In this document: positions 1 through 14,572 of the stretch, piece by piece
Layout: each line of letters opens with the position of its first letter
Position numbering within the stretch: the stretch's first letter is position 1
Source: an uncultured Lachnospiraceae bacterium
GTDB lineage: Bacteria > Bacillota > Clostridia > Lachnospirales > Lachnospiraceae
NCBI GenBank assembly: GCA_947624815.1
Contig: CANQME010000016.1
Location: 1-40,316, forward strand
Length of the DNA: 40,316 nucleotides
Direction of reading: 5' to 3'
Position numbers and translations under genes: made by a program
Notes under the pieces: generated by a model
What the model saw: the letters and a program-made list of their open reading frames with translations, nothing else
Databases searched by the model: none
Told to the model about the DNA's origin: nothing

Positions 1-7
1 TATGATT

Positions 8-50
8 GTCCCCCAACTGCTTTATGCGCCAGTTCGGGTACTTCGGGGAC
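8..50. repeat. Imperfect hairpin at the window edge, possibly a REP-like element
   Basis: Positions 8-13 (GTCCCC) can pair with 45-50 (GGGGAC), and 15-19 (AACTG) with 30-34 (CAGTT), leaving an asymmetric internal loop at 35-44. It follows the stop codon of the VTC gene on the minus strand. It could be a repeat element or a weak transcription end signal. No T-run follows on the minus strand inside the window. The window begins too close to decide. Confidence 0.25.
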
Positions 51-69
51 GGTCTTTTTCATACACGAG

Positions 70-825
70 TTATCTGTTTGTTTTCACTACACCGGCCAGC
101 GGGTCAGCCATATGGAAAGCCGCTTCATAGCATAGCGTATACTTACTCACTGCCGTGAACTCCTGCCCCGCGGAGGGCAGCAGCTTCTGGATAAGGGCCG
201 GAAGAAACTCTGTAAACTTCACTTCCAACACCAGCTTTCCGGGCTCCAGCGTCGCCAGCGTCGGAAGCGTTGCATCAAAGATATCAAAGCTTCCGATCGC
301 TGCCCGGACATCACTGTCAAAGGTAATGCGAACATTTCCCTCATCCAGGATCAACGGCACCCGGTCGTAATCCACGATCACCTTCGGCTTATACTGCTTC
401 GTACGGCACTCGTAAAAGAATTCCCGGCAGAGCGGGGCCGGATGATTCAACAGGAACTCATAATCCCCCGTGATAAGGGCATCCGTCTCCTGCCTCGTCA
501 GGGAAGCCGAATCCTTATGGATATAGGCTCCCCGCTTCAGCTTCCGCTCCAGTTTGATGGACTTATCAGAACACCCATAACAGCGAATGCGCCACTTGCA
601 GCGGTCCTGTACGCCCATCATCTTCTCATTGTAGGATGAATCCCACATATCGTCGAAATAAAGGCTGCGGATCATATACATCCCGTTTTCAGCATGAGGA
701 TCCGCCTGAAGAAACGGTCCCAGCCGCTGCTTCAGCACATATGCCTCCCAGTCTGATATCAGGTACTTCCATTCGTTTCGGAATTTCAGGCGGGGCTGAG
801 ATGCTTCTTCAGTCTTCTTCCCCAT
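70..825 (-). CDS. VTC-domain protein, polyphosphate polymerase family
   Basis: About 251 residues that match the VTC domain (yeast Vtc4-like, triphosphate-tunnel fold) over nearly their full length. Visible landmarks are RNEWKYLIS near the N-terminus, the basic strand around RCKWRIRCYG, the ERKLKRGAYIHK strand, KVIVDYDR and VLEVKFTEFLP. Such alternating Arg/Lys/Glu strands line the tunnel that makes polyphosphate from ATP in Vtc4. No membrane segment is visible, so it is probably cytoplasmic or works with a membrane partner. The ATG at 825 is preferred because GAGGAG lies 8 bases upstream; an ATG at 831 overlaps the stop of the upstream CotH gene. It is the last complete gene of the pel-cotH block. 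In relatives, VTC genes of this type often sit next to cotH and a DUF4956 membrane protein. The latter could lie just beyond the left edge, which is inference. The substrate in this organism is unknown. Confidence 0.85.
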   Translation of the reverse strand: MGKKTEEASQPRLKFRNEWKYLISDWEAYVLKQRLGPFLQADPHAENGMYMIRSLYFDDMWDSSYNEKMMGVQDRCKWRIRCYGCSDKSIKLERKLKRGAYIHKDSASLTRQETDALITGDYEFLLNHPAPLCREFFYECRTKQYKPKVIVDYDRVPLILDEGNVRITFDSDVRAAIGSFDIFDATLPTLATLEPGKLVLEVKFTEFLPALIQKLLPSAGQEFTAVSKYTLCYEAAFHMADPLAGVVKTNR

Positions 826-830
826 ATACA

Positions 831-2597
831 TCACTCCTCTGTATATCGGTTAACCTGAACAGAGCCGTCGTCCAGCACATAGAAACACAGCGTACTCGTG
901 ATGACCCGATCTGTCTCCGTCAGATAATATTCATAAGCATCCTGCGCGGAACCGTTCCCCGCTGTGGCCCTCACCCTCAGGAAATACTGCCCGGCAGGAA
1001 GCAGCTCGATCTGATAAGACGTCTCTGTCTGGACCTTCACATCCAGCAAATCCTGCCGGAAATTCGGATCCCGGCTCAACTCCACAGAATAGGACAGGTC
1101 CCCATCCGGATAAACATAGGAAGGATCCCATTTTAGGATCATCGTTCCCTCTCTGATCTCCGGCTCCCGGATATGGAACGGCCATGGTTCCGTCATGCTT
1201 GCCTTATATGCCTCATAGTTTGACGTGATCTCCTCCGGAACAGCATCTACAAGACGGTCGTAATTGCTGCTGGACACCCTTTGAAACATCGAATCCGGTA
1301 TATCATAGACATATGGTTTGATCATCTCTGCATAATTACGGACACGTTCCCTGATCTCATCCTCCGACAACCAGCTGTTATAGATATCGTCAACAACTTC
1401 ATTCAGAATAGCCCTGCATTCCCCATCTTTCAGGATACGTTCGAAAAGTCTTGCACTTACCAGCGGGAAAATGCCGTGACTCCACGACGGATCATAGTCT
1501 TCGTCTCTCAACCTTTCATATGCCTCCGACAGCATGCCGTCATTATCCCAGCTCAGAATATACCAAGTGTTCACACCCTGCGGGCTGTAGAGATAGAAAT
1601 TACTGGATTCCACGTCCCGGTTACCCATCAGGACATGAAACCCCATCCAGTAGAACAGGTTATCCCGGTTGAAATACATCCGAATAATTTCCCTGATAGG
1701 CTGCTTCTCATCATTAACCGCCTGAAGCATAGCCAGCAACTTCGTATGATCCACGTCCCCCTTGATCTCCAGCAACTCCTCAAATGCCTTCTGGTCAAAA
1801 TCTGCATCAGTCGCCAGCTTCAGAGTCTCGCTGTGCGGATACCAGTCAAATGTACCGGCCTTATAGATATTCCCGCCGGAATCCAGGTTTCGGTTCTTGA
1901 AGTACCGCTTGTTGATCTGCTCCACCGCAGTATAGAGTCCGTAATCCTCAAACTTATCGTCCGCTCCCTCCGTACGGTCCTTCACATACAGATGCACAAA
2001 CCATGTCCTGGCACTGAACATCTCCGGTATCTCTGCCATCAGGTCATAGGCCAACTTGTTTCGAAATCTCGTAGGATCCGGAACATGCTTGTTCAACACG
2101 ACGACCTTCTGTTCCTCCCAACTTCCTTTGCCCTTCTTTATATCAATACGATAACTCTTCTGAGGCTGCTCCGATGCGCCCGTTCCCCGCAATCGCACCG
2201 TAGCGTTGGGATTCAGTTCCCCATAACCGAACTGATCAGACAACGGTCCCAATTCATCGCCGACCTGCAGGAGCGCTTCACACATATAAGGATCCGTGCC
2301 CAACCCCTCATAGTAGGCGAGTGAGTGCTCGTTGACTTCCTTCCAGGTATGGTTCGTACCATCCTCCTCCGATCCCATGCCGACCGTGAGATACATTGTA
2401 ATGATCCCGTCCACAAGGTCAACATACATCTGATCACTGTCTTTCACGACATAAAGGGAAGATTCCGATCGTTTTTCATATGTCTCATCCGAACTCAGGA
2501 GAGTAGATATACTCTGTCCGTTTGAACAGCCGCACAAACAAACTGCCAATATAGCAATACTCGCACACCAAAATGTTTTATTGACCAGCAGGTTCAT
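831..2597 (-). CDS. CotH kinase family lipoprotein with C-terminal FnIII-like domain
   Basis: 588 residues from the ATG at 2597. That start has AAAGGAGG 9 bases upstream and produces a lipoprotein signal ending LCGC (lipid-anchored Cys24), so the protein is probably tethered to the outer face of the membrane. The longer open frame from 2756 lies inside the upstream gene and would destroy the signal. CotH features are RLRGTGASEQPQKSYRI near residue 135, HVLMGNRDVESSN at 321-333, and the acidic SWDND at 349-353. CotH proteins are atypical kinases; in Bacillus spore coat CotH phosphorylates other coat proteins. The last 120 residues (starting PWPFHIREPEI) look like one fibronectin type III fold. 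The gene overlaps the upstream CotH gene by 20 bases, and the two are clear paralogues. The target is unknown; pel-linked surface proteins or sugars are candidates. Confidence 0.9.
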   Translation of the reverse strand: MNLLVNKTFWCASIAILAVCLCGCSNGQSISTLLSSDETYEKRSESSLYVVKDSDQMYVDLVDGIITMYLTVGMGSEEDGTNHTWKEVNEHSLAYYEGLGTDPYMCEALLQVGDELGPLSDQFGYGELNPNATVRLRGTGASEQPQKSYRIDIKKGKGSWEEQKVVVLNKHVPDPTRFRNKLAYDLMAEIPEMFSARTWFVHLYVKDRTEGADDKFEDYGLYTAVEQINKRYFKNRNLDSGGNIYKAGTFDWYPHSETLKLATDADFDQKAFEELLEIKGDVDHTKLLAMLQAVNDEKQPIREIIRMYFNRDNLFYWMGFHVLMGNRDVESSNFYLYSPQGVNTWYILSWDNDGMLSEAYERLRDEDYDPSWSHGIFPLVSARLFERILKDGECRAILNEVVDDIYNSWLSEDEIRERVRNYAEMIKPYVYDIPDSMFQRVSSSNYDRLVDAVPEEITSNYEAYKASMTEPWPFHIREPEIREGTMILKWDPSYVYPDGDLSYSVELSRDPNFRQDLLDVKVQTETSYQIELLPAGQYFLRVRATAGNGSAQDAYEYYLTETDRVITSTLCFYVLDDGSVQVNRYTEE

Positions 2598-4419
2598 ATG
2601 TTCCATCCTCCTTTCGATTAAATACATAGCAACCATATCTCTTGCCGCGTTGGGTAGGATCATGAGCATAATAATCGAAACACTCCATGGTATAACCTGA
2701 TTCATTCGTTGCAACAACTCGTATATAGTACTGTCCCGGTTGCAGATCAACATCAAAATAGCACTCCGGTATCCTGATGTTGTCTGCCCGGGCGATCACA
2801 TCAGTGAAAGCCGAATCATTTGCCAGGATACAGGTGTAGGAAATATCCTCGCCATCCATGTCATAAGAAACATCCCACCCGATATGCATTCTCCCATCAT
2901 CTGCTGTTTCCGGTACACCAACATAAAACGGCCATGGCTTCTTCAACGACTCCATATAAACCTGATAGTTGTACTCAATCTCTTCCCACAAATGTGCCGA
3001 AACATATTCGTACTCCTCTGGAGTAATGTCCCAGTACAGACTATCCGGTTCCCGAGAAAGATATGGTAGGATTATAGTTTTATAACCTTCAATCAAGCTA
3101 TTTACGTTCTCCTTTTTGAGGTAATGATCCTTTAAATCCGCCACCGCCGCTGTCAGAGCATCCCGATATTCAGGAATACGCAACACACGATTGAACAAAA
3201 CCACACATGTGAATTGCGTAATGCCGCATTCCCAGGATTCTCCAGCTGATCGATTATGTAAACGATTTTTCGTTCTGATAAAACTACCGTCACAATCCCA
3301 AGACAAAAAATACCACTTCTCAGAATTCAGTGGACTATAGAGGTATTCATTACGAGGTCCCACATCTGTATTTCCAACCAATATATGGTATGCCATAAAA
3401 TAACTGAAATTCTCTACGTCAAAATATCTCTCTACGATATCCTCAATAGGAATCGTGTAATCATTGACCGCAGTCAAAAGCTCGCGCAACTTAGCATGGT
3501 TGGTATCGCCTTTGGGCTTTAGAATCTCCTCAAACGCCCATTGATCGAATTCCGGGTCGCTCTCCAGTACCATTAGGGGTTCATAATCATAAAATTCAAA
3601 AACAACGAGCTTATAAAAATATCCTCTTTTATCCAAACCATGATTCTCCAGATAATCTTTATTCATCTGTTCCAACCGTGTATACAACCCATAATCCTCA
3701 AACTCCCCGCTGCCGCCCTCAGTCTCATCCTTCACATACAGATGAACGAACTGGGTACGAATCGCCGTCATCTGTGGCACCGGCTGCATCAAGTCAAACA
3801 CAAGCTTATTCCGAAAGCGTAGTTCATCACTCATATACTTGTTTAATGGCAGGGTTTGCATATTCTTATAGGTTCCTTTGCCGTCCTTAATCCGAATTTT
3901 GTAGCTCTTCTGTTCATTCTTTGAAGACGTCTGCCCTCGCACGCATACCGTGGCATTAGGGATTGTTTCTCCATAGCCAAACTCACCCTCGAGTGGACCG
4001 TTCTCATCCCCAACCTGCAAAATTGCCTCACAGGCATATCGCTCGATATTATTCTCGGAGTAATAATACGTATTGTAAGTATTGACCTCAGTCCATGTAT
4101 GATTCGTACTGTCCTCGGCATTGCCGGAACGTACCGTCAGGTACATCGTAACCACCTGATCCCGCTCCGAAGTATCAGAGTAGATACTCTTGTCCTCCCG
4201 TAAGCAAGTGTCTTCCATAACGGCTGTTTTCTCTACAACATCGCCCCTCCGCGGCACAGTCTCCGGTTCTGTCACCTCTGGTTCACTCAGAATGTCAAAG
4301 CTCCTCTTCCGGTAAACCACAAACACACTGATGCAGCTTCCAACTGTCAAAACTGCGATCAGGAACCACACAGGGGCAAGCACATTCTTTCGTCTCACTC
4401 TCACCGGCTTTTTTTTCAT
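2578..4419 (-). CDS. CotH kinase family protein, membrane-anchored
   Basis: 613 residues. A basic start (MKKKPVRVRRK) is followed by one hydrophobic segment at about 14-35, giving a signal anchor with the catalytic part outside. CotH motifs are RGQTSSKNEQKSYKI at 161-175, HILVGNTDVGPRNEYLY at 345-361 and SWDCDG at 373-378, so both acidic positions expected for metal and ATP binding are present. The C-terminus, from PWPFYVGVPE, is an FnIII-like domain shared with its downstream paralogue. Start: GGAGG 7 bases before the ATG. It begins 3 bases after the pelG stop, so it is surely co-transcribed with pel. Having one lipoprotein and one single-pass paralogue suggests they are not redundant, or that they act as a pair. 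AT content is a little higher than in pelG, which may mean a different history. Confidence 0.9.
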   Translation of the reverse strand: MKKKPVRVRRKNVLAPVWFLIAVLTVGSCISVFVVYRKRSFDILSEPEVTEPETVPRRGDVVEKTAVMEDTCLREDKSIYSDTSERDQVVTMYLTVRSGNAEDSTNHTWTEVNTYNTYYYSENNIERYACEAILQVGDENGPLEGEFGYGETIPNATVCVRGQTSSKNEQKSYKIRIKDGKGTYKNMQTLPLNKYMSDELRFRNKLVFDLMQPVPQMTAIRTQFVHLYVKDETEGGSGEFEDYGLYTRLEQMNKDYLENHGLDKRGYFYKLVVFEFYDYEPLMVLESDPEFDQWAFEEILKPKGDTNHAKLRELLTAVNDYTIPIEDIVERYFDVENFSYFMAYHILVGNTDVGPRNEYLYSPLNSEKWYFLSWDCDGSFIRTKNRLHNRSAGESWECGITQFTCVVLFNRVLRIPEYRDALTAAVADLKDHYLKKENVNSLIEGYKTIILPYLSREPDSLYWDITPEEYEYVSAHLWEEIEYNYQVYMESLKKPWPFYVGVPETADDGRMHIGWDVSYDMDGEDISYTCILANDSAFTDVIARADNIRIPECYFDVDLQPGQYYIRVVATNESGYTMECFDYYAHDPTQRGKRYGCYVFNRKEDGTYEPAGQ

Positions 4420-4422
4420 CGC

Positions 4423-5994
4423 TTATCCTCCATTCCCCATTGGGGACTGCCCTGTATCCGCGAGATCACGTCCCAGCTTTTTCATCCGTTTCGCCCGGCG
4501 CTTATCCGCGATACGGTTTCGTTTCTCCTGACGCTTTGCCTCCAGACGGTTCTCACGGGCGTCCAGACGGTCCGCCAATACCACGAAAAGCCCTCGGTCC
4601 AGTCCGGGCACGACCGCCTGCCGACAGAGCAGGAAGTACGGCAGACGCCGGATGTACCACTCCAGACGGAGCCAGACGATAAAATAGAAGCACAGGCCGC
4701 CGGCTACGAAACCAAGTCCGTAGAAGTTCGTCGGCACACGCAGGATTGAGTAGACCGTAGCCGCCACACTGACCGCCGCGAAAGCCAGCGTCCCCAATAA
4801 CGCTCCGGTATAATCTTCAAAATACAGCAGGATCAGCATGATGGAATTGCTGATGGCATAAATTCCGTAGCCCGCGCACAGGAAGCGGAAGATACTGACT
4901 GCCAGGTCGCTGAACCCGAGATCCGCCCTCTGCATCACGAACGTACCGATAACCACGAACAGAACCGTACACATAAACTGTTTATACCCGGCATACACCA
5001 TCTCCTGACGGAGGACGCTGACCATCTCCTTGCCGGCCTGTTCGATGTCCTGAATGGAGCCGTTATCGTTGAACAGGCTGTAGTAGTTCCGGTATTTCGG
5101 ATAGAACCGGACCTCCACGGATGTCACGAAGTTAATCGTTGTGATCAGGATCGAGAAGAACGCCAGCAGGGCCGGGACATCATGCTCCGGGGCCCCGTAG
5201 AACAGTCCCTCCACCTGGACTCTCAGCGGGCCGAAGTACATGATGACCAGATGGGCGAACAGGCCGATGTTCACGAACCCTCCTGTCAGGGCCAGGCTGC
5301 GGTACTTGTCAAACCAGCGCAGCCAGCTGAACTTTCCTCCGCTGTTGTTCGGGAAATAATCCAGGAGCAGCTTGTAATACCATGTCATCAGGATCCCGTA
5401 GGCCACGATAACGCACAGCATCAGGCTGACGATGGTCGCCCGCCCCAGGATCACCAGGATCAGCGCCAGGATAAACCCGAGCATCAGCGAGATGGCGAAC
5501 GCCAGCACGATCCCCTTATAGTCCTTAAGGGCGGTCAGATAGATCATCTCCGTCCATACGACTACCAAAACCAGGGAAAACCACAGGCATTCCAGCTGAT
5601 AGATCAGACGGATGCCCGAAAAATGCAGGAAAATACCATAGCTTACCGCACCGATCACGAGCATGATGGACAGGCTGCCGTAGAAAGACGGCATGATCGT
5701 CTCCGGCTTCTCCTCATAAAGCATGTCGGACGTGTACCGCGTCACGATCATGTTGAACCAGCTGGTCACGGTCAGCGACCAGAGCAGGCTGTAGGTAATC
5801 ATGCAGTTCATCAGCTCCCGGTCATGGGAAGCGACGCCGGCCAACCGCGAGATGATCTGCATGCCCACGAGAAGGATCACCCCGAGGATCATCGGGCCGG
5901 CGCAGACGATACCCGCGTAACCGTATGCGCGGCAAAGCGGCAGAACGCCCTTCTTCGAAAACAGCCTCTTTAAGCTGAATCCAATGCCTGCCAT
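4423..5994 (-). CDS. pelG: PelG-like exopolysaccharide transporter
   Basis: 523 residues, polytopic, with about a dozen hydrophobic segments. The start MAGIGFSLKRLF is the hallmark of PelG, a MOP/flippase-superfamily protein that moves the Pel chain across the inner membrane together with PelD, PelE and PelF. Typical PelG proteins are near 450-460 residues. This one carries an extra C-terminal tail of about 50 residues that is very rich in Arg, Lys and Glu (DARENRLEAKRQEKRNR and following), ending in a Gly/Asn-rich tip. The tail probably lies in the cytoplasm as a charged helix. Start: GGGGAGGTG about 9 bases upstream. The first 25 bases overlap the 3' end of pelF, consistent with translational coupling. 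Confidence 0.9.
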   Translation of the reverse strand: MAGIGFSLKRLFSKKGVLPLCRAYGYAGIVCAGPMILGVILLVGMQIISRLAGVASHDRELMNCMITYSLLWSLTVTSWFNMIVTRYTSDMLYEEKPETIMPSFYGSLSIMLVIGAVSYGIFLHFSGIRLIYQLECLWFSLVLVVVWTEMIYLTALKDYKGIVLAFAISLMLGFILALILVILGRATIVSLMLCVIVAYGILMTWYYKLLLDYFPNNSGGKFSWLRWFDKYRSLALTGGFVNIGLFAHLVIMYFGPLRVQVEGLFYGAPEHDVPALLAFFSILITTINFVTSVEVRFYPKYRNYYSLFNDNGSIQDIEQAGKEMVSVLRQEMVYAGYKQFMCTVLFVVIGTFVMQRADLGFSDLAVSIFRFLCAGYGIYAISNSIMLILLYFEDYTGALLGTLAFAAVSVAATVYSILRVPTNFYGLGFVAGGLCFYFIVWLRLEWYIRRLPYFLLCRQAVVPGLDRGLFVVLADRLDARENRLEAKRQEKRNRIADKRRAKRMKKLGRDLADTGQSPMGNGG

Positions 5995-7394
5995 CTCGCA
6001 AACACCTCCCCGTACGCGTCCAGATAGTTCCGGACCATATCTTCATGCAGATAATACTTCCGTACTCTCTCCTTCCCGACCTGCCCCATGTGGAAGCGCT
6101 CCTCAGGATGGGTGCAGAGGTACTCCATCGCGCCGGCGATTGCCTCCCTGTGCATCGGCGGGACACAAAAACCCGCCCGGCCCAGGGTGTCTCCGGTCAT
6201 GCCTCCGATCAGCTCCTTGCAGCAGCCGACGTCTGTCGTCACACACGGCCGGCCGGCCGCGAAGGACTCCAGCACCGACAGCGGCTGTCCCTCGGACAGG
6301 CTGGTGAGTATCGTAAAGTCAAACTCCTTCATCTTCTCCAGTACGTTCACGGTTCCCGGGAACTCTACATCCTCAAGCTTCAGCTGCGCGGCAAGGTCGT
6401 AGCACTCCCTGGCGTATTCCTCGTCGTCCTCGGGGCCGCACACATGAAGCCTCACCTTCGGGACCCGCCGTTTCAGCTCGGAGAATGCGTACAGCAGGGT
6501 CTTCACGTCCTTGATCGGCGCGATGCGCAGCACTGCGCCGATATCCGTCCAGTCATCCGGTTTCTTATACGGGATCCCGCAGAACCGGTCATAATGGACG
6601 CCGTTCACAATGTACCGGCACTTGCCGGCCCCGCAGCCCATGCTGACCTGCAGCTGGCTCGCCCTCTCGAACAGGCTGGTCACCAGCATGGCCTTTTCAT
6701 AGGCTCCCATGGAGAGCATATAGAAAAAACGCACCCACATGCGCTTGAACGCCGGAAGCACCCACTTGGCGCGGATGATCTCCTCCTCCCGTTCCCGGGT
6801 ATAGATCCCATGCTCCGTGATCAGGTAAGGTGCATGGTATACATATGACCCCAGCCGTGCCAGGATCCCTGCATAACCGGTAGCGACCGCATGATATACA
6901 TCCGCCTTCGGGACTTCGGACTGAAGCGTATAGAGCACCGGCAGCATCATCGACCGCACCGTGTGGAACAGGTCCGAAAACGCGGTGTAGGGATAATCCT
7001 CCCGGCAGATAGTCGTAAGGATCGACAGGAAATCCTCGCTCATCAAAAAAGCGATCGGGGAGACGTGATTGTCGTGATAGATATGGAACAGCGTATCCCA
7101 GTCCGGATTCCCGCACTCGATAAGTCCGCGCAGCTGCGCCGTTTCCTCATCGCTGAACTTATACCGTTTCTTCTGAAATGCCATCCGCAGGGCGTCGTTC
7201 AGGAAAAGCTCCTTCACCTCCACCACATTTTCCGGTAGCTGATACTTGAACTTCCCGCGATCCTTCGAATTCGCCCCGATCGTCCAGAGCACAAATTCGT
7301 GCTGCGGCATCGCCTGGATGTACTGGTGCATCCAGGAGGACACGCCGCCTGTAACATAGGGATAGCATCCCTCCAGTATGACGCAGATCCGCAT
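5970..7394 (-). CDS. pelF: PelF glycosyltransferase (GT4 family)
   Basis: 474 residues. The start at 7394 (MRICVILEGCYPYVTGGV) is favoured by AAGGAG 6 bases upstream; the frame extends 8 codons further but lacks a ribosome site. It is a soluble GT-B enzyme. N-terminal glycine loop YVTGGVSSW, the PelF signature TEHGIYTRERE in the middle, and the retaining GT4 motif E-x7-E in EGQPLSVLESF followed by AAGRPCVTTDVG. PelF is the cytoplasmic polymerising glycosyltransferase of Pel synthesis, which docks on the PelD/E/G membrane complex. In Pseudomonas the polymer is rich in N-acetylgalactosamine; the sugar used here cannot be read from the sequence. It overlaps pelG by 25 bases and follows the second DUF2194 gene by 20 bases. 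Confidence 0.95.
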   Translation of the reverse strand: MRICVILEGCYPYVTGGVSSWMHQYIQAMPQHEFVLWTIGANSKDRGKFKYQLPENVVEVKELFLNDALRMAFQKKRYKFSDEETAQLRGLIECGNPDWDTLFHIYHDNHVSPIAFLMSEDFLSILTTICREDYPYTAFSDLFHTVRSMMLPVLYTLQSEVPKADVYHAVATGYAGILARLGSYVYHAPYLITEHGIYTREREEEIIRAKWVLPAFKRMWVRFFYMLSMGAYEKAMLVTSLFERASQLQVSMGCGAGKCRYIVNGVHYDRFCGIPYKKPDDWTDIGAVLRIAPIKDVKTLLYAFSELKRRVPKVRLHVCGPEDDEEYARECYDLAAQLKLEDVEFPGTVNVLEKMKEFDFTILTSLSEGQPLSVLESFAAGRPCVTTDVGCCKELIGGMTGDTLGRAGFCVPPMHREAIAGAMEYLCTHPEERFHMGQVGKERVRKYYLHEDMVRNYLDAYGEVFARWQALDSA

Positions 7395-7414
7395 AAGCAG
7401 CTCCTTCCTTCTGA

Positions 7415-9259
7415 TCATTCCAGGCCGATCGTCACGCGCTCCCTCTCCGCCTTCAGCAGATAGAGTCCGTCCGCCTGCCTTTTCAGCGTTCCGCCGGCCA
7501 CAGCGCCGGCCTCATATCCGTTAAGCCTCACCAAAAAACATGCCTCATCCTCGAAATTGCCAAGTTCCAGTACCAGCTGCCCTTCGTATATCGTCTGCCT
7601 CACGGTCACTGCATCATACCGCTGTACGGCCCCCGCCAGTTCACCGGCGGTCATGTTCCTGAGATCCGGGGCCGCTCCGTAAAGCCAGTCCAGATAGACG
7701 CAGAACGCATCCTTTAAGCCGCCCCATCCGAGGTCTTCTCCCTGTTCGTCCAGCACGTCATAGGGATGCTGGGAATGGGAATTCACATAATGGAAATTCA
7801 GTTCTGAGAAAGCAGCCAGGTACCCGGTTCCACCCGGCTGGCATCCGGACACGATACGCGGTACATTGACGATCCCGTCGCCGTCCACATCGAAGTCCTG
7901 TGTATAGCTGGGCCCGTCGGGCACATACACGCCGGAGATGACCCTGATCTCCGGGAATTTCCCGGCAATCAGCTGCCTGGCCTCGTCCGACAGGATTCCG
8001 GATGGCGGCACATAGGTCTGCATCCCGCTGTTCGGATACAGCCTGGAACAGAAGCCGGTCAGCTCCCTGAGTCCTGCCTCCATATCCGCCGTACTGGGCC
8101 AGGGGATATAATTCTCCTCCAACCCCTGATAATCAAAGCCCTCCAGTGCCAGCGGCATATGGTTATAACCATGGAATCCGATCTCCCCGCCCTGCCTGAG
8201 GATACCCATGCCATAACTCCGAAACGCCGCCGTATCCAGACCCGCACCGTCAAACGGTGCGCTGACATTCATGGAATAGTCTTCAATTACGGATCCCGTA
8301 TATTTCAGGCCGTATTGCCTTGCAATGGCCAGCATGTCAGGCCACCAGACCTGCGCATAGAACCTGCGCACGTTGACGCCGTAGTCTTCCTTGATTTTCC
8401 GGTCCACAGCATTCGATACCGGCCCGGGGAAATCATCCAGGAAAAACGCGGAACCGTTGATCACGGGCCACGCGAAGGCGTCCTCCAGCAGGCTGTAGCA
8501 CGACGCATAGATTCCCATAAGGTCTTTCGTCACACAGCCGAGATTCGCGGCCACGATCGTGCCGTCCCCCAGCTTCTTCCGCCATACCAGCGGGATAGAC
8601 CGTCCATCTGCAGATTCCAGATATACCTCGCACTCCCCGCCGAGAAGGATCTGGTACGAAGAACTGTAATGGTCCTGCAGGGAATACTCCCTGTCGGCCC
8701 CGATCATGAACGGCCTGGCCAAACGAAGCCCGGATACCTCCACGGGTTCCGTATCCATGCTGACGATCCCGAGATCCTGCGAGATCATATTGAGAAAGCT
8801 TCCCCTGTCATCTTCCACGGCGGCCAGGAAGACATGTCCGCCGCTCCTGACCCAGTCCATAATACCCCTAAGCTCCTCGCCGAATACGCTCAGGTCCGAA
8901 GTACAGATCATCGCGGACCTGCAGCCGTCCAGATCCGTCTGCCTGAAGGCCTCGCTGGTCACATCCAGATAGGTGACCTTCATCTGGTCGAGCATCGGTC
9001 CCAGCACACTCCTGTAGACCTCGCCGCTGCCGTCGCCGTCACAGATGAAAAGACAGTCCACAGAGCGGTTCCAGTCCCGTTGCGTCATCTGGCTCAGCCG
9101 TTCCCACCGGTCCCGGTCCATCAGTGCCGGCCCGCCGGTTTCACCGGCGGACCCCATTCCCAGCATCTCGCGTCCTGTCAGGGCGATCAGCAGCACCGCA
9201 AAACCTGCGGCCAGGACGATGATCCCCCAATAGACAAAACCATGCTGCTTTATTTCCAT
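7415..9259 (-). CDS. DUF2194 protein, PelA-deacetylase-like (second copy)
   Basis: 614 residues: one N-terminal membrane anchor (about 9-29), then an extracellular part. The N-terminal half looks like a Rossmann/flavodoxin-like fold (LFICDGDGSGEV; AMICTSDLSV). The C-terminal half is a NodB-like deacetylase. The acidic pair is at D275-D276 in FFLDDFPGP, the H-x3-H metal motif in FHGYNHMPL is at H363 and H367, and VPPSGIL and VNSHSQHP supply further motif positions. This layout corresponds to the deacetylase half of PelA, which partly deacetylates Pel, without the PelA glycosidase domain. A small beta-rich domain ends the protein. Start: AGGAGG 9 bases upstream; the gap to the first DUF2194 gene is 21 bases. 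Clear paralogue of that gene. Confidence 0.85.
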   Translation of the reverse strand: MEIKQHGFVYWGIIVLAAGFAVLLIALTGREMLGMGSAGETGGPALMDRDRWERLSQMTQRDWNRSVDCLFICDGDGSGEVYRSVLGPMLDQMKVTYLDVTSEAFRQTDLDGCRSAMICTSDLSVFGEELRGIMDWVRSGGHVFLAAVEDDRGSFLNMISQDLGIVSMDTEPVEVSGLRLARPFMIGADREYSLQDHYSSSYQILLGGECEVYLESADGRSIPLVWRKKLGDGTIVAANLGCVTKDLMGIYASCYSLLEDAFAWPVINGSAFFLDDFPGPVSNAVDRKIKEDYGVNVRRFYAQVWWPDMLAIARQYGLKYTGSVIEDYSMNVSAPFDGAGLDTAAFRSYGMGILRQGGEIGFHGYNHMPLALEGFDYQGLEENYIPWPSTADMEAGLRELTGFCSRLYPNSGMQTYVPPSGILSDEARQLIAGKFPEIRVISGVYVPDGPSYTQDFDVDGDGIVNVPRIVSGCQPGGTGYLAAFSELNFHYVNSHSQHPYDVLDEQGEDLGWGGLKDAFCVYLDWLYGAAPDLRNMTAGELAGAVQRYDAVTVRQTIYEGQLVLELGNFEDEACFLVRLNGYEAGAVAGGTLKRQADGLYLLKAERERVTIGLE

Positions 9260-9280
9260 AACCGGAGCCTCCTGTTTTCC

Positions 9281-11143
9281 TTACTTCAGTTCGACCACGA
9301 TCTCGCCGCTCTCTGCCTTCAGCAGGTACAGCCCCTCCTGAAGCTCCGTCAGTTGCCCCCCACGGACCTGGCCGGCCGAATGTCCGTTCAGCCGGACCAG
9401 CAGCCACGCCTCATCCGCAAAGCCGCCGAGGGCGATCGTCAACGTGTCCTCCGACACCGTCTGCTCCACCTGCAGGTTAAAGTAACGCTGGGTCGCGCCT
9501 GCCAGCTCCGTGCCGGTCAGGTCCCGGATATCCGGGGCCGCCTGCTTCAGCCAGTCCATATAGCTGTTCAGGCGCCGGCTCATCTCTGCCCATCCAAGGT
9601 CCGCGCCGCGGTCTTCGTCCAGCACATCGTCCGGATGCTGGAAATGGGTATTCACGAACCGGTAATTCAGCTCCAGAAGCGCCGACAGATAGGCGAACTC
9701 CGGCAGGATATAACCCGAGATGATACGGGGAGTCTCGACGACGCCGTCTTCAGCGACTTCGAACTCCTGGTCATAGCAGACGCCGTCCGCCAGATAGGTA
9801 CTCGCAACCACCTTGATCTGGGGGAACTGCTCATGCAGCATCCTGCGCCCCTCCGGCGACAGGATGTTGGACGGCGGCACATACACCTGGAATTCCTCGC
9901 CCGGATACAGGGAAGTACAGAACCGGTTCAGCTCCTGCAGGCTCGCGAACATGGCGTGTGTGCTGACCCATGGCGTATATTCGTCATATTCCCCCCGGTA
10001 ATCAAAGTTCTGCAGGACCAGCGGCATATGGTTATACCCGTGGAACCCGATCTCACCGCCCATCTGCAGCAGGCTGCGGCCGTAATACCGGTACCGGTTC
10101 AGGTCGTTATTCACCGGCAGCGGTTCGCTGACCTCATCGGAATACTGCTCGATGACCAGCCCGGTATAGCGGTATCCATGGCTCTTCGCCATCTCCTGGA
10201 CATCCGTCCACCAGATCTGGCTCATGAAATCCCGGACGGACATCCCGTAATCGGCCGTCACATGCCGGTCGTCGCCCTGGGGCACCGGAGCCGGGAAGTC
10301 GTCGATATAGAACGTCGAACCGTTGATGACCGGCCACGCAAACGCATCGCCCAGCAGGCTGTACGCCGACAGATAGAAGCCCCGGTAGATCTTATCCGTG
10401 AAATCCAGGTTCGACACCACCACGGTGCCTTTCCCCAGCTGCTTCCTCCACAGGATCGGAACCGGATCCGCGCCGGTTGATTCCACGTAAACCTCGCAAT
10501 CCTCGTCCAGCAGGACAGGGAGGGAGGACTCATAGGGATCCGTAATACCGTAATCCCTCAGGCCGGAACCCAGCATGAACGGGTTGCAAAAATGCAGCCC
10601 CTCTACTACACTGTAGGTATCTCCGGTACCGATGATACCCAGCTGGCTTTGGATCATATCCAGATAGCCGCTTTGAGAGGGCAGATCGAACAGCATCAGA
10701 TTGCCGCCGTTCTCCGTCCAGTTCATGATCTCCATCACACTTTCTCCAAGGGCATCGAGCTGTTCCGTGGCCAATACTACGGTTTTGTAGCCTTTCAAAG
10801 CAGTTTCCTCCAGGGCACCGGCCTCCCTTATTTCATACGGGACCTTCGTCTGGCTCATCACATCCGACATCAGTGTCAATGCAGCCCTTCCCTGCGGATC
10901 ATCACTCCAGAGGATCAGGCACTCGGGTTTCTGATCCGGGATCTCCGTTTTCTTCAGCCGGTCTGGCGGCAGAATATCTAGCGAGAGTGTTTCTACCTCA
11001 TACGATATACTCCGCTGCACCATAAACAAGGCAAATGTCAGCAGGATAAACAGGAGAATTACGATCTGCATCCGTTTGAACAGCAGCTTCCTGCGGTCAC
11101 CTATCGACATCAGCTCATATGTAGCATGCTTTCTCCTTCTCAT
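9281..11143 (-). CDS. DUF2194 protein, PelA-deacetylase-like (first copy)
   Basis: 620 residues with the same architecture as the gene that follows: a cytoplasmic basic stretch, one membrane helix at about 25-43, a Rossmann-like region (CLILWSDDPQG; TVVLATEQLD), then the NodB-like part with TFYIDDFPAPV (D281-D282), FHGYNHMPL (H368, H372), VPPSNIL and VNTHFQHPDD. All metal-site positions are kept in both copies, so neither looks dead. The strongest shared blocks surround AWPVINGS and GGEIGFHGYNHMPL. Start: GGAGGAGG upstream and an ATGA overlap with pelE. The likely role is deacetylation of the Pel chain outside the membrane. Why two are needed is unknown: they may form a heterodimer or act on different lengths or substituents. 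Confidence 0.85.
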   Translation of the reverse strand: MRRRKHATYELMSIGDRRKLLFKRMQIVILLFILLTFALFMVQRSISYEVETLSLDILPPDRLKKTEIPDQKPECLILWSDDPQGRAALTLMSDVMSQTKVPYEIREAGALEETALKGYKTVVLATEQLDALGESVMEIMNWTENGGNLMLFDLPSQSGYLDMIQSQLGIIGTGDTYSVVEGLHFCNPFMLGSGLRDYGITDPYESSLPVLLDEDCEVYVESTGADPVPILWRKQLGKGTVVVSNLDFTDKIYRGFYLSAYSLLGDAFAWPVINGSTFYIDDFPAPVPQGDDRHVTADYGMSVRDFMSQIWWTDVQEMAKSHGYRYTGLVIEQYSDEVSEPLPVNNDLNRYRYYGRSLLQMGGEIGFHGYNHMPLVLQNFDYRGEYDEYTPWVSTHAMFASLQELNRFCTSLYPGEEFQVYVPPSNILSPEGRRMLHEQFPQIKVVASTYLADGVCYDQEFEVAEDGVVETPRIISGYILPEFAYLSALLELNYRFVNTHFQHPDDVLDEDRGADLGWAEMSRRLNSYMDWLKQAAPDIRDLTGTELAGATQRYFNLQVEQTVSEDTLTIALGGFADEAWLLVRLNGHSAGQVRGGQLTELQEGLYLLKAESGEIVVELK

Positions 11144-12069
11144 TGTGCAACCTCCTCCCCGGCAGACAGGGTCGCCCTATTCAGATCCCTGCCCTCCCAG
11201 AACGCCGCTTCCGCACGCCCGTTCGGAGTCAGATACACATGCTCTTCCTTAATGGCCTTCAGTGTCCGGTCGATCCCGTCCCGGTCCTTTAACTGCGCAT
11301 AATACCGGATCTGGTGCAGATACCCCCGTTCATCCCGGGGCCAGGATTCTATCAGTTTCCGGATTCCGTTCCTCGCCGCGTCATATTCTCCCAGCTTTAA
11401 GTCCGCATCGACCTTCTTCACCAGAAGCGCCGCAGTCTCTCCCTTCTCCAGACGGCGGGCCAGCAGGTCACTGTAGCTCTTCAGCTGGATCATGCGCGCA
11501 TTGCCCTCCAGAAGGCCGCTGCCCAGGTAACGTTCCAGCAGGGAGATGGCCTCGTTCAACGTACTGTTATCTTCCGGATGAAGGGCCATCATCCGCTCCA
11601 TCCGCTGGAACTGCAGGTCATACTCCTTCTGCAGCTCCACCAGTGCCGTTACGGCATAGTGAACGACCTCAGTATCGTCATTCATACGGGCCGCCTGCAG
11701 CTGGCTCACGTAGTCCCCCGGATCGGCATACATGACCTCCATCATAAGTCCCCGCCTTGTGGATACGTCATTGACCAGCAGGGCCTCCTCCAGGGGCACC
11801 ACATCGGCCGACTGATCCTCATCCATCATGATGCTGCGATGGATCTCGTCATCCACATGGAGCCTCTCTACGCCCACGTCCTTATACGGAGCCGCATGGA
11901 GCCGGACGCGGATCTCCTGGACCGCCAGGCACAGCAGACCCCAGACAGGAACCAGGACCACGACAGACATCGAAAGCTGGCTGGCACGCAGAACATTCAG
12001 TTTTGTCAGAATATAAGCCAGCAGGCAGATCAGCAGGTGAACCATAAGCAGAATGATCTCGATCCTCAT
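11140..12069 (-). CDS. pelE: PelE-like membrane protein with TPR-like repeats
   Basis: 309 residues. Two hydrophobic helices at about 2-20 and 32-50 are followed by an all-helical soluble region. The signature is around PLEEALLVNDVSTRRGLMMEVMY, then YVSQLQAARMNDDTEVVHYA, typical of PelE. TPR-like helices continue from about residue 165 to the end. PelE is a membrane scaffold of the Pel synthase complex thought to link PelD and PelG and recruit PelF. The start ATG overlaps the pelD stop (ATGA), with AAGGTG upstream, and the stop overlaps the next start in the same way. Function is inferred from order (D-E-A-F-G) as much as from sequence, since PelE proteins are divergent. Confidence 0.8.
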   Translation of the reverse strand: MRIEIILLMVHLLICLLAYILTKLNVLRASQLSMSVVVLVPVWGLLCLAVQEIRVRLHAAPYKDVGVERLHVDDEIHRSIMMDEDQSADVVPLEEALLVNDVSTRRGLMMEVMYADPGDYVSQLQAARMNDDTEVVHYAVTALVELQKEYDLQFQRMERMMALHPEDNSTLNEAISLLERYLGSGLLEGNARMIQLKSYSDLLARRLEKGETAALLVKKVDADLKLGEYDAARNGIRKLIESWPRDERGYLHQIRYYAQLKDRDGIDRTLKAIKEEHVYLTPNGRAEAAFWEGRDLNRATLSAGEEVAQ

Positions 12070-14192
12070 GCGCCCACCTTCTCTGCAATTTGATATCGAA
12101 GCCCTTTCTCCGTCAGCCGTTGTCCGACGATGCCGAAATTGTGTTCCGTGATCTGCGTCAACAGCAGGTACATGTACCCGTCGCTGCCCTGGCCGAGCGT
12201 ATCGCTGGCGCGGACCATACCGGTCAGAGCTTCGCTGACACGCACAGGATCCTGATCCTCGAACCGCAGCAGCATATAATCCGCCGCGCCGGCCTGACGC
12301 ATCTCCTCCTGAACAGCCAGGATCTGCGCGAGATGCTCCGCCGTGACCGCCCGGGTTCCGGGTACGGTCATCTGATCATGGCGCAGCTGCTCGTACTCCA
12401 TCGCACGCAGGAACGAAGTCTGCACCAGTCCGCAGAGGATCTGGAAGATATTCGTATAGTGGGTGCCGTACTGCTCCGGGCTTGCTTCCCACAGAAGGAC
12501 AAGCATCACCACCTCTCCACTCCGGAACACGCCGCAGGCGTACATCGGCGTATCGGGAAACAGCTCCACATTGCGCCACACGCCGCCCCCCTTCACCGTC
12601 TCAAACATCTCTTTGTAATCCTCCAGCCGCATGGAGACTGAGGACCGGCGCAGCAGGCTGCCGGAACAGGCTACCAGGCGGGCGAAGCGCTGCCAGGAGT
12701 CCACCGTATAGATCGCCACCGTGTGGTTCTCCATGATCTCTTCCATGACCTCCAGCCCCTTCAGGAACACACTCTGCGGAAGCTCGCTGTCCAGTCTCTG
12801 GACAGCGTCAAAAATCTTGCCGAAGCTGTCCTTAAACCCCAGGATCTGACGTTTGTAATCGCCCTTGTTCTGTATGGCGCCGTGATAAACGTTGGACAGG
12901 AACAGATATTTGTCACGCAGCAATCCGTACTCCTTTTCCGAGAATGCGATCTGCTCCGTCGACTTATCCCGGATATAGCCGGCGATCGATCCGGCCATCA
13001 GGTACACCGCGAACGGGATCCAGTTCTCAATGTTGTAGAACAGCAGTGTCCCGGACACTCCGATGCGCGTATACTGAGTAATAAGCACCAGACCCTCCAG
13101 GACGGAAGCAAGCATGCCTATCCGCATACCGTAGATCGTACCCATGATGACGATAAAAGCCAGCCGTACGTCCACAAACCGAAAATAGACAGAATCCGAA
13201 GTATACCCGGCAATGTATTCCGTGAGCAGAAACATCAGGACCAGCTCGAAGTATTTAAACACATTGCCGCTCACCCACCGGAAGAACTTAAGAAGCAGGC
13301 TGTCCCTTTTTTTCTTGAACCCGGCCCTGAACCGCTCATAGTATTCCCCGACGTGTTCCAGTACCGGTACGATCGGGACAAAACCGTACCGGCGGCGCAG
13401 CTGAGCGGGGAAATCCGGCCACCGGATGTCCTCGCGCCGTTCCTCATAGCTGACCTGCAGGGAAGGCTCGCACGCTTTCAGTACCTCCTCCAGCTGCCCA
13501 TATGTACACGGATCCGCACTGACGGCAAAATAGCTCATTGTCTCGTCGTCCGTCTCATCGGTGATCTGCTGCAGCAGGTCAGAAAGATCGTATGCGGACA
13601 GGAAATCGGCGCGGGCGTCTCTTGTATAAGGAAACGTCACAGTCTTCTTTTCATACATCCTGCGGAATACCTCGCCCAGGAAATTGTTGTCATTGACTGA
13701 GTCCGCCACATAAGGCACCCACAGGGTAATGACCTTCATCCCGGTCTTTTCCGCGAAAAAGCCGGCGAGGGCTTCCATCTGGACCGCATTGAAGACCCGG
13801 CTGTCCGGATAATCCTTCCCGGTCAGTCCCTCCGCAGATGTATAGCGGTTCATATAGTTTTGCGTATCCACCGTCGAAAGCAGCACAAATTTGTCCAGAC
13901 GCGCTCGGCTGCTCTCATCAAGCGCACGTTCCAGCATCTGAACCTCGCCGAAGGTGCCGTCCCCTCCGTCAGCATAACCGCTGACATACCACACGGCATT
14001 GAAGGTATATACGTCGAACAGCTGGCCAAAGCTGTCCTCCATGGGAGTCATCCGGTAAACATGAATTCCGCGGAGTTTCCCTTCGTAGCCGGCCTCGCTT
14101 CCCGCAAGTACGACCATATTGTCCTCCGCGATCCGTTCCAGAGTCTCCTGTGTAAACAACGCGGTGTTACCAGCAATCAGTACCGTTGCCAT
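12066..14192 (-). CDS. pelD: PelD-like c-di-GMP receptor with N-terminal SDR/epimerase-like domain
   Basis: 708 residues, much longer than Pseudomonas PelD (about 455). Residues 1-270 resemble an extended SDR/NAD-dependent epimerase: a beta-alpha-beta start (VLIAGNTALF, a worn glycine loop), VWYVSGYADG, KFVLLSTVDT and a YTSAEGLTGKDY region. The usual Tyr-x3-Lys catalytic pair is not clear. Four membrane helices lie at about 312-406, then a GAF-like region to about 570, then a degenerate GGDEF domain. There RASD (661-664) stands exactly where the RxxD inhibitory c-di-GMP site of diguanylate cyclases stands, five residues before GSDGY (669-673), which replaces GGDEF. PelD is the c-di-GMP receptor that activates Pel synthesis. 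First gene of the operon. The ribosome site AGAGG lies about 12 bases upstream, so it is rather weak. Confidence 0.88.
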   Translation of the reverse strand: MATVLIAGNTALFTQETLERIAEDNMVVLAGSEAGYEGKLRGIHVYRMTPMEDSFGQLFDVYTFNAVWYVSGYADGGDGTFGEVQMLERALDESSRARLDKFVLLSTVDTQNYMNRYTSAEGLTGKDYPDSRVFNAVQMEALAGFFAEKTGMKVITLWVPYVADSVNDNNFLGEVFRRMYEKKTVTFPYTRDARADFLSAYDLSDLLQQITDETDDETMSYFAVSADPCTYGQLEEVLKACEPSLQVSYEERREDIRWPDFPAQLRRRYGFVPIVPVLEHVGEYYERFRAGFKKKRDSLLLKFFRWVSGNVFKYFELVLMFLLTEYIAGYTSDSVYFRFVDVRLAFIVIMGTIYGMRIGMLASVLEGLVLITQYTRIGVSGTLLFYNIENWIPFAVYLMAGSIAGYIRDKSTEQIAFSEKEYGLLRDKYLFLSNVYHGAIQNKGDYKRQILGFKDSFGKIFDAVQRLDSELPQSVFLKGLEVMEEIMENHTVAIYTVDSWQRFARLVACSGSLLRRSSVSMRLEDYKEMFETVKGGGVWRNVELFPDTPMYACGVFRSGEVVMLVLLWEASPEQYGTHYTNIFQILCGLVQTSFLRAMEYEQLRHDQMTVPGTRAVTAEHLAQILAVQEEMRQAGAADYMLLRFEDQDPVRVSEALTGMVRASDTLGQGSDGYMYLLLTQITEHNFGIVGQRLTEKGLRYQIAEKVGA

Positions 14193-14244
14193 AAGTAAAC
14201 ATCGCCTCTTTCTTCCTGTTATTTATAGAAACATTAGCCGGAAG

Positions 14245-14270
14245 AAAGGGGCTGCCGTGGCAGCCCCTTT
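14245..14270 (-). terminator. Hairpin between the RHH gene and pelD, terminator or attenuator
   Basis: A perfect 12-bp inverted repeat (AAAGGGGCTGCC at 14245-14256, GGCAGCCCCTTT at 14259-14270). On the minus strand the stem is followed by CTTCCGG, not a run of T, so termination may be only partial. It sits 40 bases after the RHH stop and 53 bases before pelD. No good sigma-A promoter is visible between hairpin and pelD, only an isolated TATAAA at about 14223-14228. This fits readthrough or attenuation control of pel. Confidence 0.6.
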
Positions 14271-14309
14271 GGCTCATCCATATTGAAAAGCTGTTCTTCC
14301 TAAAAAAGT

Positions 14310-14510
14310 TCATTCAGTAGAGCCCGCACTCCCTGCAGCACGGCTGCATTCCGATACGCCTGCTCTTCTAAGCTGCTCAAGCCCTAAACGTATCAGCTCG
14401 ACCGTCGCTTCCGAACGCGTCTGATAGCGGTGCTCAAACCGGAAATCTTCAATCTGCTGAAATAATTCGTTGTCTACGGATATCGTATAGCGCGGCCTGT
14501 CAGTCGCCAT
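14310..14510 (-). CDS. Small ribbon-helix-helix (CopG/Arc-like) protein
   Basis: 66 residues. The ATG at 14510 is chosen because AGAGG lies 8 bases upstream; a GTG three codons earlier is possible. PRYTISVDNELFQQIEDF forms the DNA-contacting strand and first helix, and TRSEATVELIRLGLEQL the second helix, the usual RHH pattern. These are small dimeric DNA-binding proteins. No toxin gene lies next to it, so it is more likely a local regulator than an antitoxin. It stands between the large surface-protein gene (62 bases upstream) and the pel operon (117 bases downstream), all on the same strand, and is a natural candidate for controlling one or both. Confidence 0.8.
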   Translation of the reverse strand: MATDRPRYTISVDNELFQQIEDFRFEHRYQTRSEATVELIRLGLEQLRRAGVSECSRAAGSAGSTE

Positions 14511-14572
14511 CGTTATCACCTCTTCTTCCGGTTTTCTCCGCTTTCTTCTCCCGTTGTTTCACTTCGGTTCCG

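Follow-up and report, generated by a model that had tools for sequence, protein, structure and literature searches.

A window of 40,316 nt was analysed, which is the whole of contig C16 (CANQME010000016.1, positions 1 to 40,316 of the forward strand) in assembly GCA_947624815.1 of an uncultured Lachnospiraceae bacterium, probably a gut dweller. It carries a nine-gene run that is almost certainly a Gram-positive pelDEADAFG-type operon for the exopolysaccharide Pel, extended by an accessory set of cotH, VTC, DUF4956 and DUF4832, with tandem pelADA and tandem cotH genes, and cut by the contig end after VTC. The best overall explanation, to which we give a probability of roughly 55%, is that the first CotH protein (CotH1) would act outside the membrane as a kinase where Pel is exported, accompanied by a polyphosphate unit made up of VTC and DUF4956. 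A published arrangement recurs in the window as a variant with pelADA and cotH doubled. What is new here is the all-or-none presence of the accessory genes, the PelG-CotH single reading frames, the loss of residues in paralogues and the distribution of VTC-DUF4956 outside pel.

The gene order was confirmed on the minus strand as pelD-pelE-pelADA-pelADA-pelF-pelG-cotH-cotH-VTC, nine open frames running from 14192 to 70.

12066..14192, minus strand: pelD, 708 amino acids, extended form; an open frame; related loci have a homologous PelD in this position.
11140..12069, minus strand: pelE, 309 amino acids; an open frame; related loci have homologues in this position.
9281..11143, minus strand: pelADA copy 1, DUF2194 polysaccharide de-N-acetylase; PF09960, 492.6 bits.
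7415..9259, minus strand: pelADA copy 2, DUF2194; PF09960, 413.4 bits.
5970..7418, minus strand: pelF, family 4 glycosyltransferase (Pel polymerase); PF11997 (DUF3492), 270.8 bits.
4423..5994, minus strand: pelG, membrane exporter; PF16933, 441.4 bits (cut-off 29).
2578..4419, minus strand: cotH1, kinase-like; PF08757, 218.8 bits, and alignment with 5jd9.
831..2597, minus strand: cotH2; PF08757, 195.8 bits, catalytic residues kept.
70..834, minus strand: VTC-domain polyphosphate polymerase; PF09359, 123 bits (cut-off 23).
1..69, minus strand: contig end, with the 12-mer GTCCCCGAAGTA that is also at the start of contig C138 of this genome.

The first-pass annotation had described this tight minus-strand run, and its place and order were borne out: all frames were found, the family matches fit, and the junctions are tight: neighbouring genes either overlap, by 4 to 25 nt, or are separated by 3 or 21 nt. 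The likely start of cotH2 is ATG 2597, which is preceded by GGAGG (the mechanical start was TTG 2756), and cotH1 and cotH2 therefore overlap by about 20 nt. The same annotation had named a promoter or terminator between pelG and cotH, together with rare cotH/VTC adjacency, as evidence against its reading. The two genes are joined as TAA-GCG-ATG, in the same frame with one stop codon between, and a GGAGG lies within the end of pelG. This spacing leaves no room for a terminator, which was therefore rejected. In positions 1-15000, promoter-like matches (8, versus a shuffle mean of 11.7) and terminator-like matches (11, versus 10.6) were at chance level, and the whole window gave no Rfam match at gathering thresholds and no tRNA.

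PelD and PelE were named by position and by likeness to related pel loci because their profile matches were absent or below cut-off. For PelD the sole Pfam match was DUF4118 (E value 0.00034, under the cut-off), and it matched neither a PelD profile nor any PDB sequence; by eye, its C-terminus holds a degenerate GGDEF-like end and a RASD motif resembling the c-di-GMP-binding inhibitory site, with a later Arg. PelE had no match in Pfam or NCBIfam at E 0.01. PelADA copy 1 matched PDB 9zau (E = 1.5e-64), and both copies keep the catalytic set D, D, HxxxH, P, R, H and D, as named in the available part of PMC13254593, in alignment columns DDHHPRHD. PelF matched NCBIfam NF038011 with 332.2 bits (cut-off 100). 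CotH1 carries D352 and D375 and has one N-terminal membrane anchor (hydrophobic segment 17-35, by simple hydropathy), and CotH2 is a predicted lipoprotein, its LCGC motif being read by eye. No hydrophobic segment was detected by simple hydropathy in the VTC protein, which is of the soluble type. The VTC profile matched yeast Vtc4 (3g3q, E = 1.9e-19), and in a 10-way alignment most basic residues of the tunnel align; these we take to belong to the polymerase tunnel.

Position 1 of the window is the contig end, 69 nt beyond VTC. Contig C138 opens with DUF4956 (85-768) followed by DUF4832 (749-2149); this DUF4956 lies away from any VTC, and the other one in the genome stands beside a second VTC on contig C111. 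The 12-mer GTCCCCGAAGTA is present at both contig ends and in no other locus among the 162 compared, and by eye the inverted pair AACTCGTGTA / TACACGAGTT flanks the gap between C16 and C138. Because the inverted pair and the common 12-mer flank the gap, they suggest that a small repeat broke the assembly between VTC and DUF4956. Loci L051, from the sister genome G001, and L083 have the order pelG-cotH-cotH-VTC-DUF4956-DUF4832 unbroken. From the contig ends we infer that the operon probably runs on past VTC into DUF4956-DUF4832 of C138; an operon ending with VTC was judged unlikely, given the contig end and the C138 gene order. Both genes were invisible to the first-pass annotation because they lie beyond the contig end. 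In the sister locus L051 (15872-17997), pelD is split into two frames of 302 and 360 amino acids.

This kind of arrangement has been published before. In the available part of Whitfield (2020; PMC7112168), cotH, a poly-phosphate polymerase gene, DUF4956 and DUF4832 are contiguous with pelDEADAFG in streptococci and clostridia and are tied to an extended PelD, and it is proposed that CotH may regulate Pel through phosphorylation. The window has the same core genes and order, contiguous downstream accessories and extended PelD; it differs in its two pelADA, its two cotH and the assembly break between VTC and DUF4956, and some of its relatives fuse PelG to CotH1. In Streptococcus intermedius the accessory genes were deleted one by one (Raju, 2025; PMC12345266, available part). 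All four mutants still produced Pel. Less Pel was made by the cotH mutant and more by the mutant of a gene for a four-transmembrane (four-TM) protein with an ACT domain; in 10% artificial sputum medium both showed reduced aggregation. That part of the paper, which describes the Pel as rich in N-acetylgalactosamine (GalNAc), reports no change in the polyphosphate polymerase mutant. The cluster concerned, SIR_1591-SIR_1594, has in common with our operon cotH, a polyphosphate polymerase domain gene, the four-TM/ACT gene and a hydrolase gene, with one cotH and one pelADA described there against two each in the window. We equate the four-TM/ACT gene with the DUF4956 position; the equation is ours, and the name is not used in the available part of PMC12345266. 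The first-pass view that no link of Pel with CotH and VTC had been described was thus anticipated by both papers. A polymer that must carry VTC-made polyphosphate is not favoured because the mutants still make Pel and the polymerase mutant has no reported change (available part of PMC12345266). Neither PMC7112168 nor PMC12345266 uses the word "fusion" in its main text.

The occurrence of the accessory genes was surveyed in the best 80 of 479 PelG relatives in named genomes, ranked by PelG alignment. These loci are mostly from Lachnospiraceae by title or by genus, the genera being ones that we take to belong to this family, and the closest come from assemblies named Lapin, presumably of rabbit origin to judge by the name. 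A strict set comprised the 62 loci with at least 5.2 kb after pelG, 18 of the 80 being left out. In this set cotH, VTC and DUF4956 were each present in 57 loci and DUF4832 in 59, and it was the same five loci (L119, L127, L129, L131 and L132) that were without cotH, VTC and DUF4956 together. The adjacency survey proposed in the first-pass annotation thus found cotH and VTC to be common beside pel among the closest relatives (57/62), and the joining of a Pel-type operon with phosphate-related genes is upheld by this adjacency and by shared PelG-CotH reading frames. A chance run of genes was rejected, since 57 of 62 loci share the accessory set. The five loci without these three genes form a clade, from Sarcina sp. 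DSM 11001, three RUG-named assemblies and one from sheep duodenum, with a shorter PelD (608-617 amino acids) and DUF4832 after pelG.

Copy numbers varied. The strict set had no cotH in 5 loci, one in 22, two in 33 and three in 2, counting broken-gene pieces in L094 and L136, and counting separately L051 and L085, which are the same contig. Two pelADA copies were present in 18 of the 71 loci having pelE and pelF, broken-gene pieces again being included (four in L094, two in L136). In L087 the second cotH sits after DUF4832. Of the 53 unfused loci, the window being one, 52 had pelG and cotH overlapping or at most 11 nt apart when mechanical starts were used. The picture is sparser further afield. 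PelG was present in 3 of 41 relatives, one of which (G024, genome 78% complete) had no VTC anywhere. Among 398 genomes of the phylum, strong PelG (E < 1e-50; 13 rows, strand ignored) was found in 12, with VTC within 8 kb in 3 of those. The extended form characterises this branch, not pel loci in general. In one genome, G176, the pel operon lacks accessory genes (L072, 4272-7385), and a DUF4956-CotH-VTC cluster lies on another contig (L071).

PelG and the first CotH form one open frame in 15 of the 80 loci, at 1069-1103 residues in the 14 full ones; the fifteenth (L135) is cut by its contig, and 14 of the 15 lie in the strict set. A complete genome, that of Claveliimonas bilis strain c-25 (NZ_AP024845.1), has the fusion. 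At the junction a K/R-rich PelG tail is followed by a hydrophobic stretch and a lipobox, with Gly513-Cys514 invariant in all 14 full fusions. The CotH part is predicted to lie outside the membrane because the tail is K/R-rich and then hydrophobic (simple hydropathy), and the kept lipobox suggests that the fusion would be cleaved and lipidated, two proteins being delivered as one. In L089 there is no ATG, GTG or TTG in the 45 codons before the Cys. Other fusions have such codons in or near the hydrophobic stretch, so that separate translation of CotH is possible there. A lipobox was found in 67 of 85 CotH proteins, a count in which the mechanical starts understate lipoboxes. On the PelG tree the fusion needs six changes, five of them forced by starred branches, a number that may be 1-2 lower because L139 was scored as unfused though its pelG is cut; the fused loci L160 and L125 were placed away from the main fused group. 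A low-confidence structure model of the fusion (predicted local distance difference test, pLDDT, 63.0; predicted template modelling score 0.45) shows PelG as helical and CotH as a part of its own, with a helix at 492-511.

The paralogues were then compared. In a CotH tree of 58 rows from chosen loci, CotH1 formed a clade with support 92 and CotH2 a starred clade with support 99, and on this tree the CotH1/CotH2 split traces to a duplication within the branch studied here. The CotH pair of L069 is a separate duplication on the tree, and the first cotH of L087 falls in the CotH2 clade. The catalytic pair of Bacillus subtilis CotH, D228 and D251 (PMC7821199, available part), was equated with CotH1 D352 and D375 by the 23-residue spacing and the 5jd9 alignment. 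Counted in kin loci, and hence not independently, and omitting 8 of 114 CotH pieces shorter than 540 amino acids, the Asp pair was kept in 37/37 first copies, in 31/31 lone copies (a class that includes the contig-cut loci L104 and L105) and in 28/38 later copies, one or both residues being lost in 10. For PelADA, counted in the same way with 11 of 105 pieces shorter than 560 amino acids omitted, catalytic residues were lost in 10/18 later copies, 1/18 first copies and 2/58 lone copies, the last class including contig-cut loci (among them L139, whose first copy is cut). In the window both cotH and both pelADA copies are catalytically intact by residue. In seven loci (L090, L092, L096, L097, L101, L138 and L139) DGYQ or DGFQ replaces DDHH in the second pelADA, with loss of the metal-binding residues; this copy is likely a pseudo-enzyme kept beside the first. 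Compared with the spore coat kinase CotH of B. subtilis, the window proteins have in common the CotH domain and the Asp pair 23 residues apart; unlike it, they are predicted to be extracytoplasmic and have an anchor or lipobox, and their C-terminal part is fibronectin-like (fn3, E 0.003, under the cut-off).

VTC and DUF4956 also travel together away from pel. Of the 398 genomes, 64 had VTC, and exactly these had DUF4956 as well (62 above the family cut-off, 2 under it). Among 79 VTC rows, in which one gene counts twice as two pieces and one match is short and under the cut-off, DUF4956 lay within 2 kb in 73, CotH in 41 and both in 40, and 38 of these 40 groups (36 genomes) had no strong pelG within 8 kb. 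DUF4956 was missing from this 2 kb range in six rows, which belong to G000 and G102 (both at contig starts), G309, G422 and G347 (two pieces). VTC-DUF4956-CotH synteny is widespread outside pel, which contradicts the statement in the available part of PMC12345266 that the three-gene synteny is not found there.

Three contexts were recognised in loci chosen by hand from the matches, not at random. In the first (L053, L054, L058, L059 and L060), VTC-DUF4956-CotH is followed by a protein weakly resembling glycoside hydrolase family 72, a HEAT protein and a family 2 glycosyltransferase (GT2) synthase, apparently another surface-polymer locus. NELoc-2 of Clostridium perfringens (Lepp, 2010; PMC2879425, available part) holds VTC, membrane genes of 222-226 amino acids called tubulin/FtsZ, and CotH, and its neighbours are a 685-amino-acid protein, a HEAT protein and a GT2 synthase, not pel. 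If the tubulin/FtsZ genes are DUF4956, an equation made here by size and place and not in the available part of that paper, its order is that of the first context. In the second context (L055, L056, L061, L063 and L064) the trio is joined by a histidine kinase and a response regulator. In the third (L050, L067, L068 and L082) a Cthe_2159-type protein replaces CotH; L050 is on contig C111 of this same genome, where the second VTC-DUF4956 pair is followed by a Cthe_2159-type carbohydrate-binding protein, with no CotH (6583-10098). The pel-type order CotH-VTC-DUF4956 is also seen at locus L062, whose genome gave no PelG match. The VTC proteins of pel loci formed one starred clade (29 of 30 chosen rows, with L069 unplaced). 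Because it occurs so widely outside pel, the VTC-DUF4956 unit is portable, and its chemistry should be sought across several loci rather than in Pel alone.

A model of DUF4956 (pLDDT 75.6) consisted of a helical membrane part and a C-terminal domain matching ACT domains and the MgtC C-terminal domain; the ACT-like fold is a common one. The membrane part had no match among the structures listed, by which novelty of the fold is not implied. As in the yeast VTC complex, a Vtc4-type catalytic domain stands beside a membrane partner; unlike in yeast, the bacterial parts are separate genes, DUF4956 has an ACT-like domain, and no SPX domain was found by Pfam in the window VTC protein.

Taken as a working mechanism, PelF would polymerise GalNAc under PelD control, PelG would export the chain and PelADA would deacetylate it. 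CotH1, outside the membrane at the PelG exit, may phosphorylate something that meets the emerging polymer; its likeliest target would be a protein of the export/deacetylation complex or a surface partner, the glycan itself being less likely. That CotH1 acts at the export site we consider reasonably probable. CotH2 would be an old lipid-anchored paralogue with an assisting or regulating part, and it may be a scaffold or regulator because copies in several relatives have lost catalytic residues. Cytosolic VTC and membrane DUF4956 very probably form one unit, and the case that this unit makes polyphosphate and may move or sense it is evenly balanced. The net effect would be a tuning of Pel amount and cell cohesion, rather than Pel being made or not. 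The published mutants fit such a tuning role, and VTC as a donor source is not favoured. The fusions, the all-or-none presence and the residue loss in CotH2 turn an observation of neighbourhood into specific tests, of an export-site kinase and of an active versus a partly degenerate paralogue.

Other explanations were weighed against this export-site kinase. The best placed of them, which we still regard as unlikely, is that VTC-DUF4956 exports polyphosphate to the surface and that the polyanion cross-links partly deacetylated, cationic Pel, CotH being separate. In all 64 genomes with either gene, VTC and DUF4956 occur together, and their division into polymerase and membrane part recalls the yeast complex, by the Vtc4 match and a presumed likeness of the membrane parts. 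The S. intermedius mutants point both ways (PMC12345266, available part): the DUF4956-position mutant had more Pel and less aggregation, but the VTC-type mutant had no reported change, and the Pel of this species would be weakly cationic because it is GalNAc-rich. The structure model of DUF4956 also speaks against it: its similarity was to ACT domains and the MgtC C-terminal domain, and for the membrane part there was none among the listed structures.

Somewhat less credible is a scheme in which VTC is another triphosphate-tunnel enzyme, making or breaking a phosphate signal for the ACT-like domain of DUF4956 to read. Against it, among solved structures the sequence matched Vtc4 polymerases best, and most of the basic residues assigned to the tunnel are aligned.

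It is also doubtful that exported polyphosphate serves as phosphoryl donor for an extracytoplasmic CotH acting on Pel or a partner where there is no ATP. The idea accords with CotH being predicted outside, with VTC, DUF4956 and CotH lying within 2 kb in 40 of 79 VTC rows (38 of them away from pelG), and with their presence or absence together in pel loci. However, CotH of B. subtilis is ATP-dependent, which we count against a polyphosphate donor, and VTC-DUF4956 is also found where a Cthe_2159-type protein replaces CotH. The B. subtilis enzyme is a Ser/Thr kinase of spore coat proteins (PMC7821199, available part). The cotH mutant has a phenotype, but the VTC-type mutant has no reported change (PMC12345266, available part), and because of this last result polyphosphate as the CotH donor was not adopted.

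No better placed is the proposal that common descent alone keeps the genes side by side, and that cotH, VTC and DUF4956 do general surface or phosphate work unrelated to Pel. The 38 of 40 trios away from pelG would fit it, as would the continued Pel production of the S. intermedius accessory mutants (PMC12345266, available part). It is at odds with the all-or-none presence in 62 loci, the single starred clade of pel-locus VTC proteins (29/30 chosen rows), the recurrence of PelG-CotH fusions and the pelG-cotH spacing in 52 of 53 unfused loci (mechanical starts), and with the altered Pel level of the cotH and DUF4956-position mutants in the same paper. Most improbable of all is the full combination in which PelG-CotH, as one chain with an internal lipoprotein signal, delivers a kinase at the exporter mouth that phosphorylates the emerging glycan or the deacetylase using polyphosphate made and exported by VTC-DUF4956, as a portable unit common to Pel and the GT2-type surface locus.

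Upstream of the operon the following element was noticed by eye, unlisted by the scanner.

14245..14270, minus strand: perfect 12-base GC-rich inverted repeat, 2 bases between its arms, upstream of pelD.

This repeat is a possible boundary to the genes before pelD. Also upstream of pelD, a 66-amino-acid frame on the minus strand (14310-14510, beginning MATDRPRYTISVDNELFQQIEDF) has by eye the look of a ribbon-helix-helix regulator; Pfam at E 0.01 found nothing in it, and tblastn against the loci from L049 on gave no match. Adjoining the pel operon (14573-20281, minus strand) is a gene for a 1902-amino-acid surface protein that contains SpaA and DUF5979 repeats; its end, PMTGD, looks LPxTG-like by eye, and the protein could be a matrix partner. 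At the far end of the window (38891-40060, minus strand) lies a gene for a PGA_cap protein of the capsule-synthesis type (PF09587, 231 bits).

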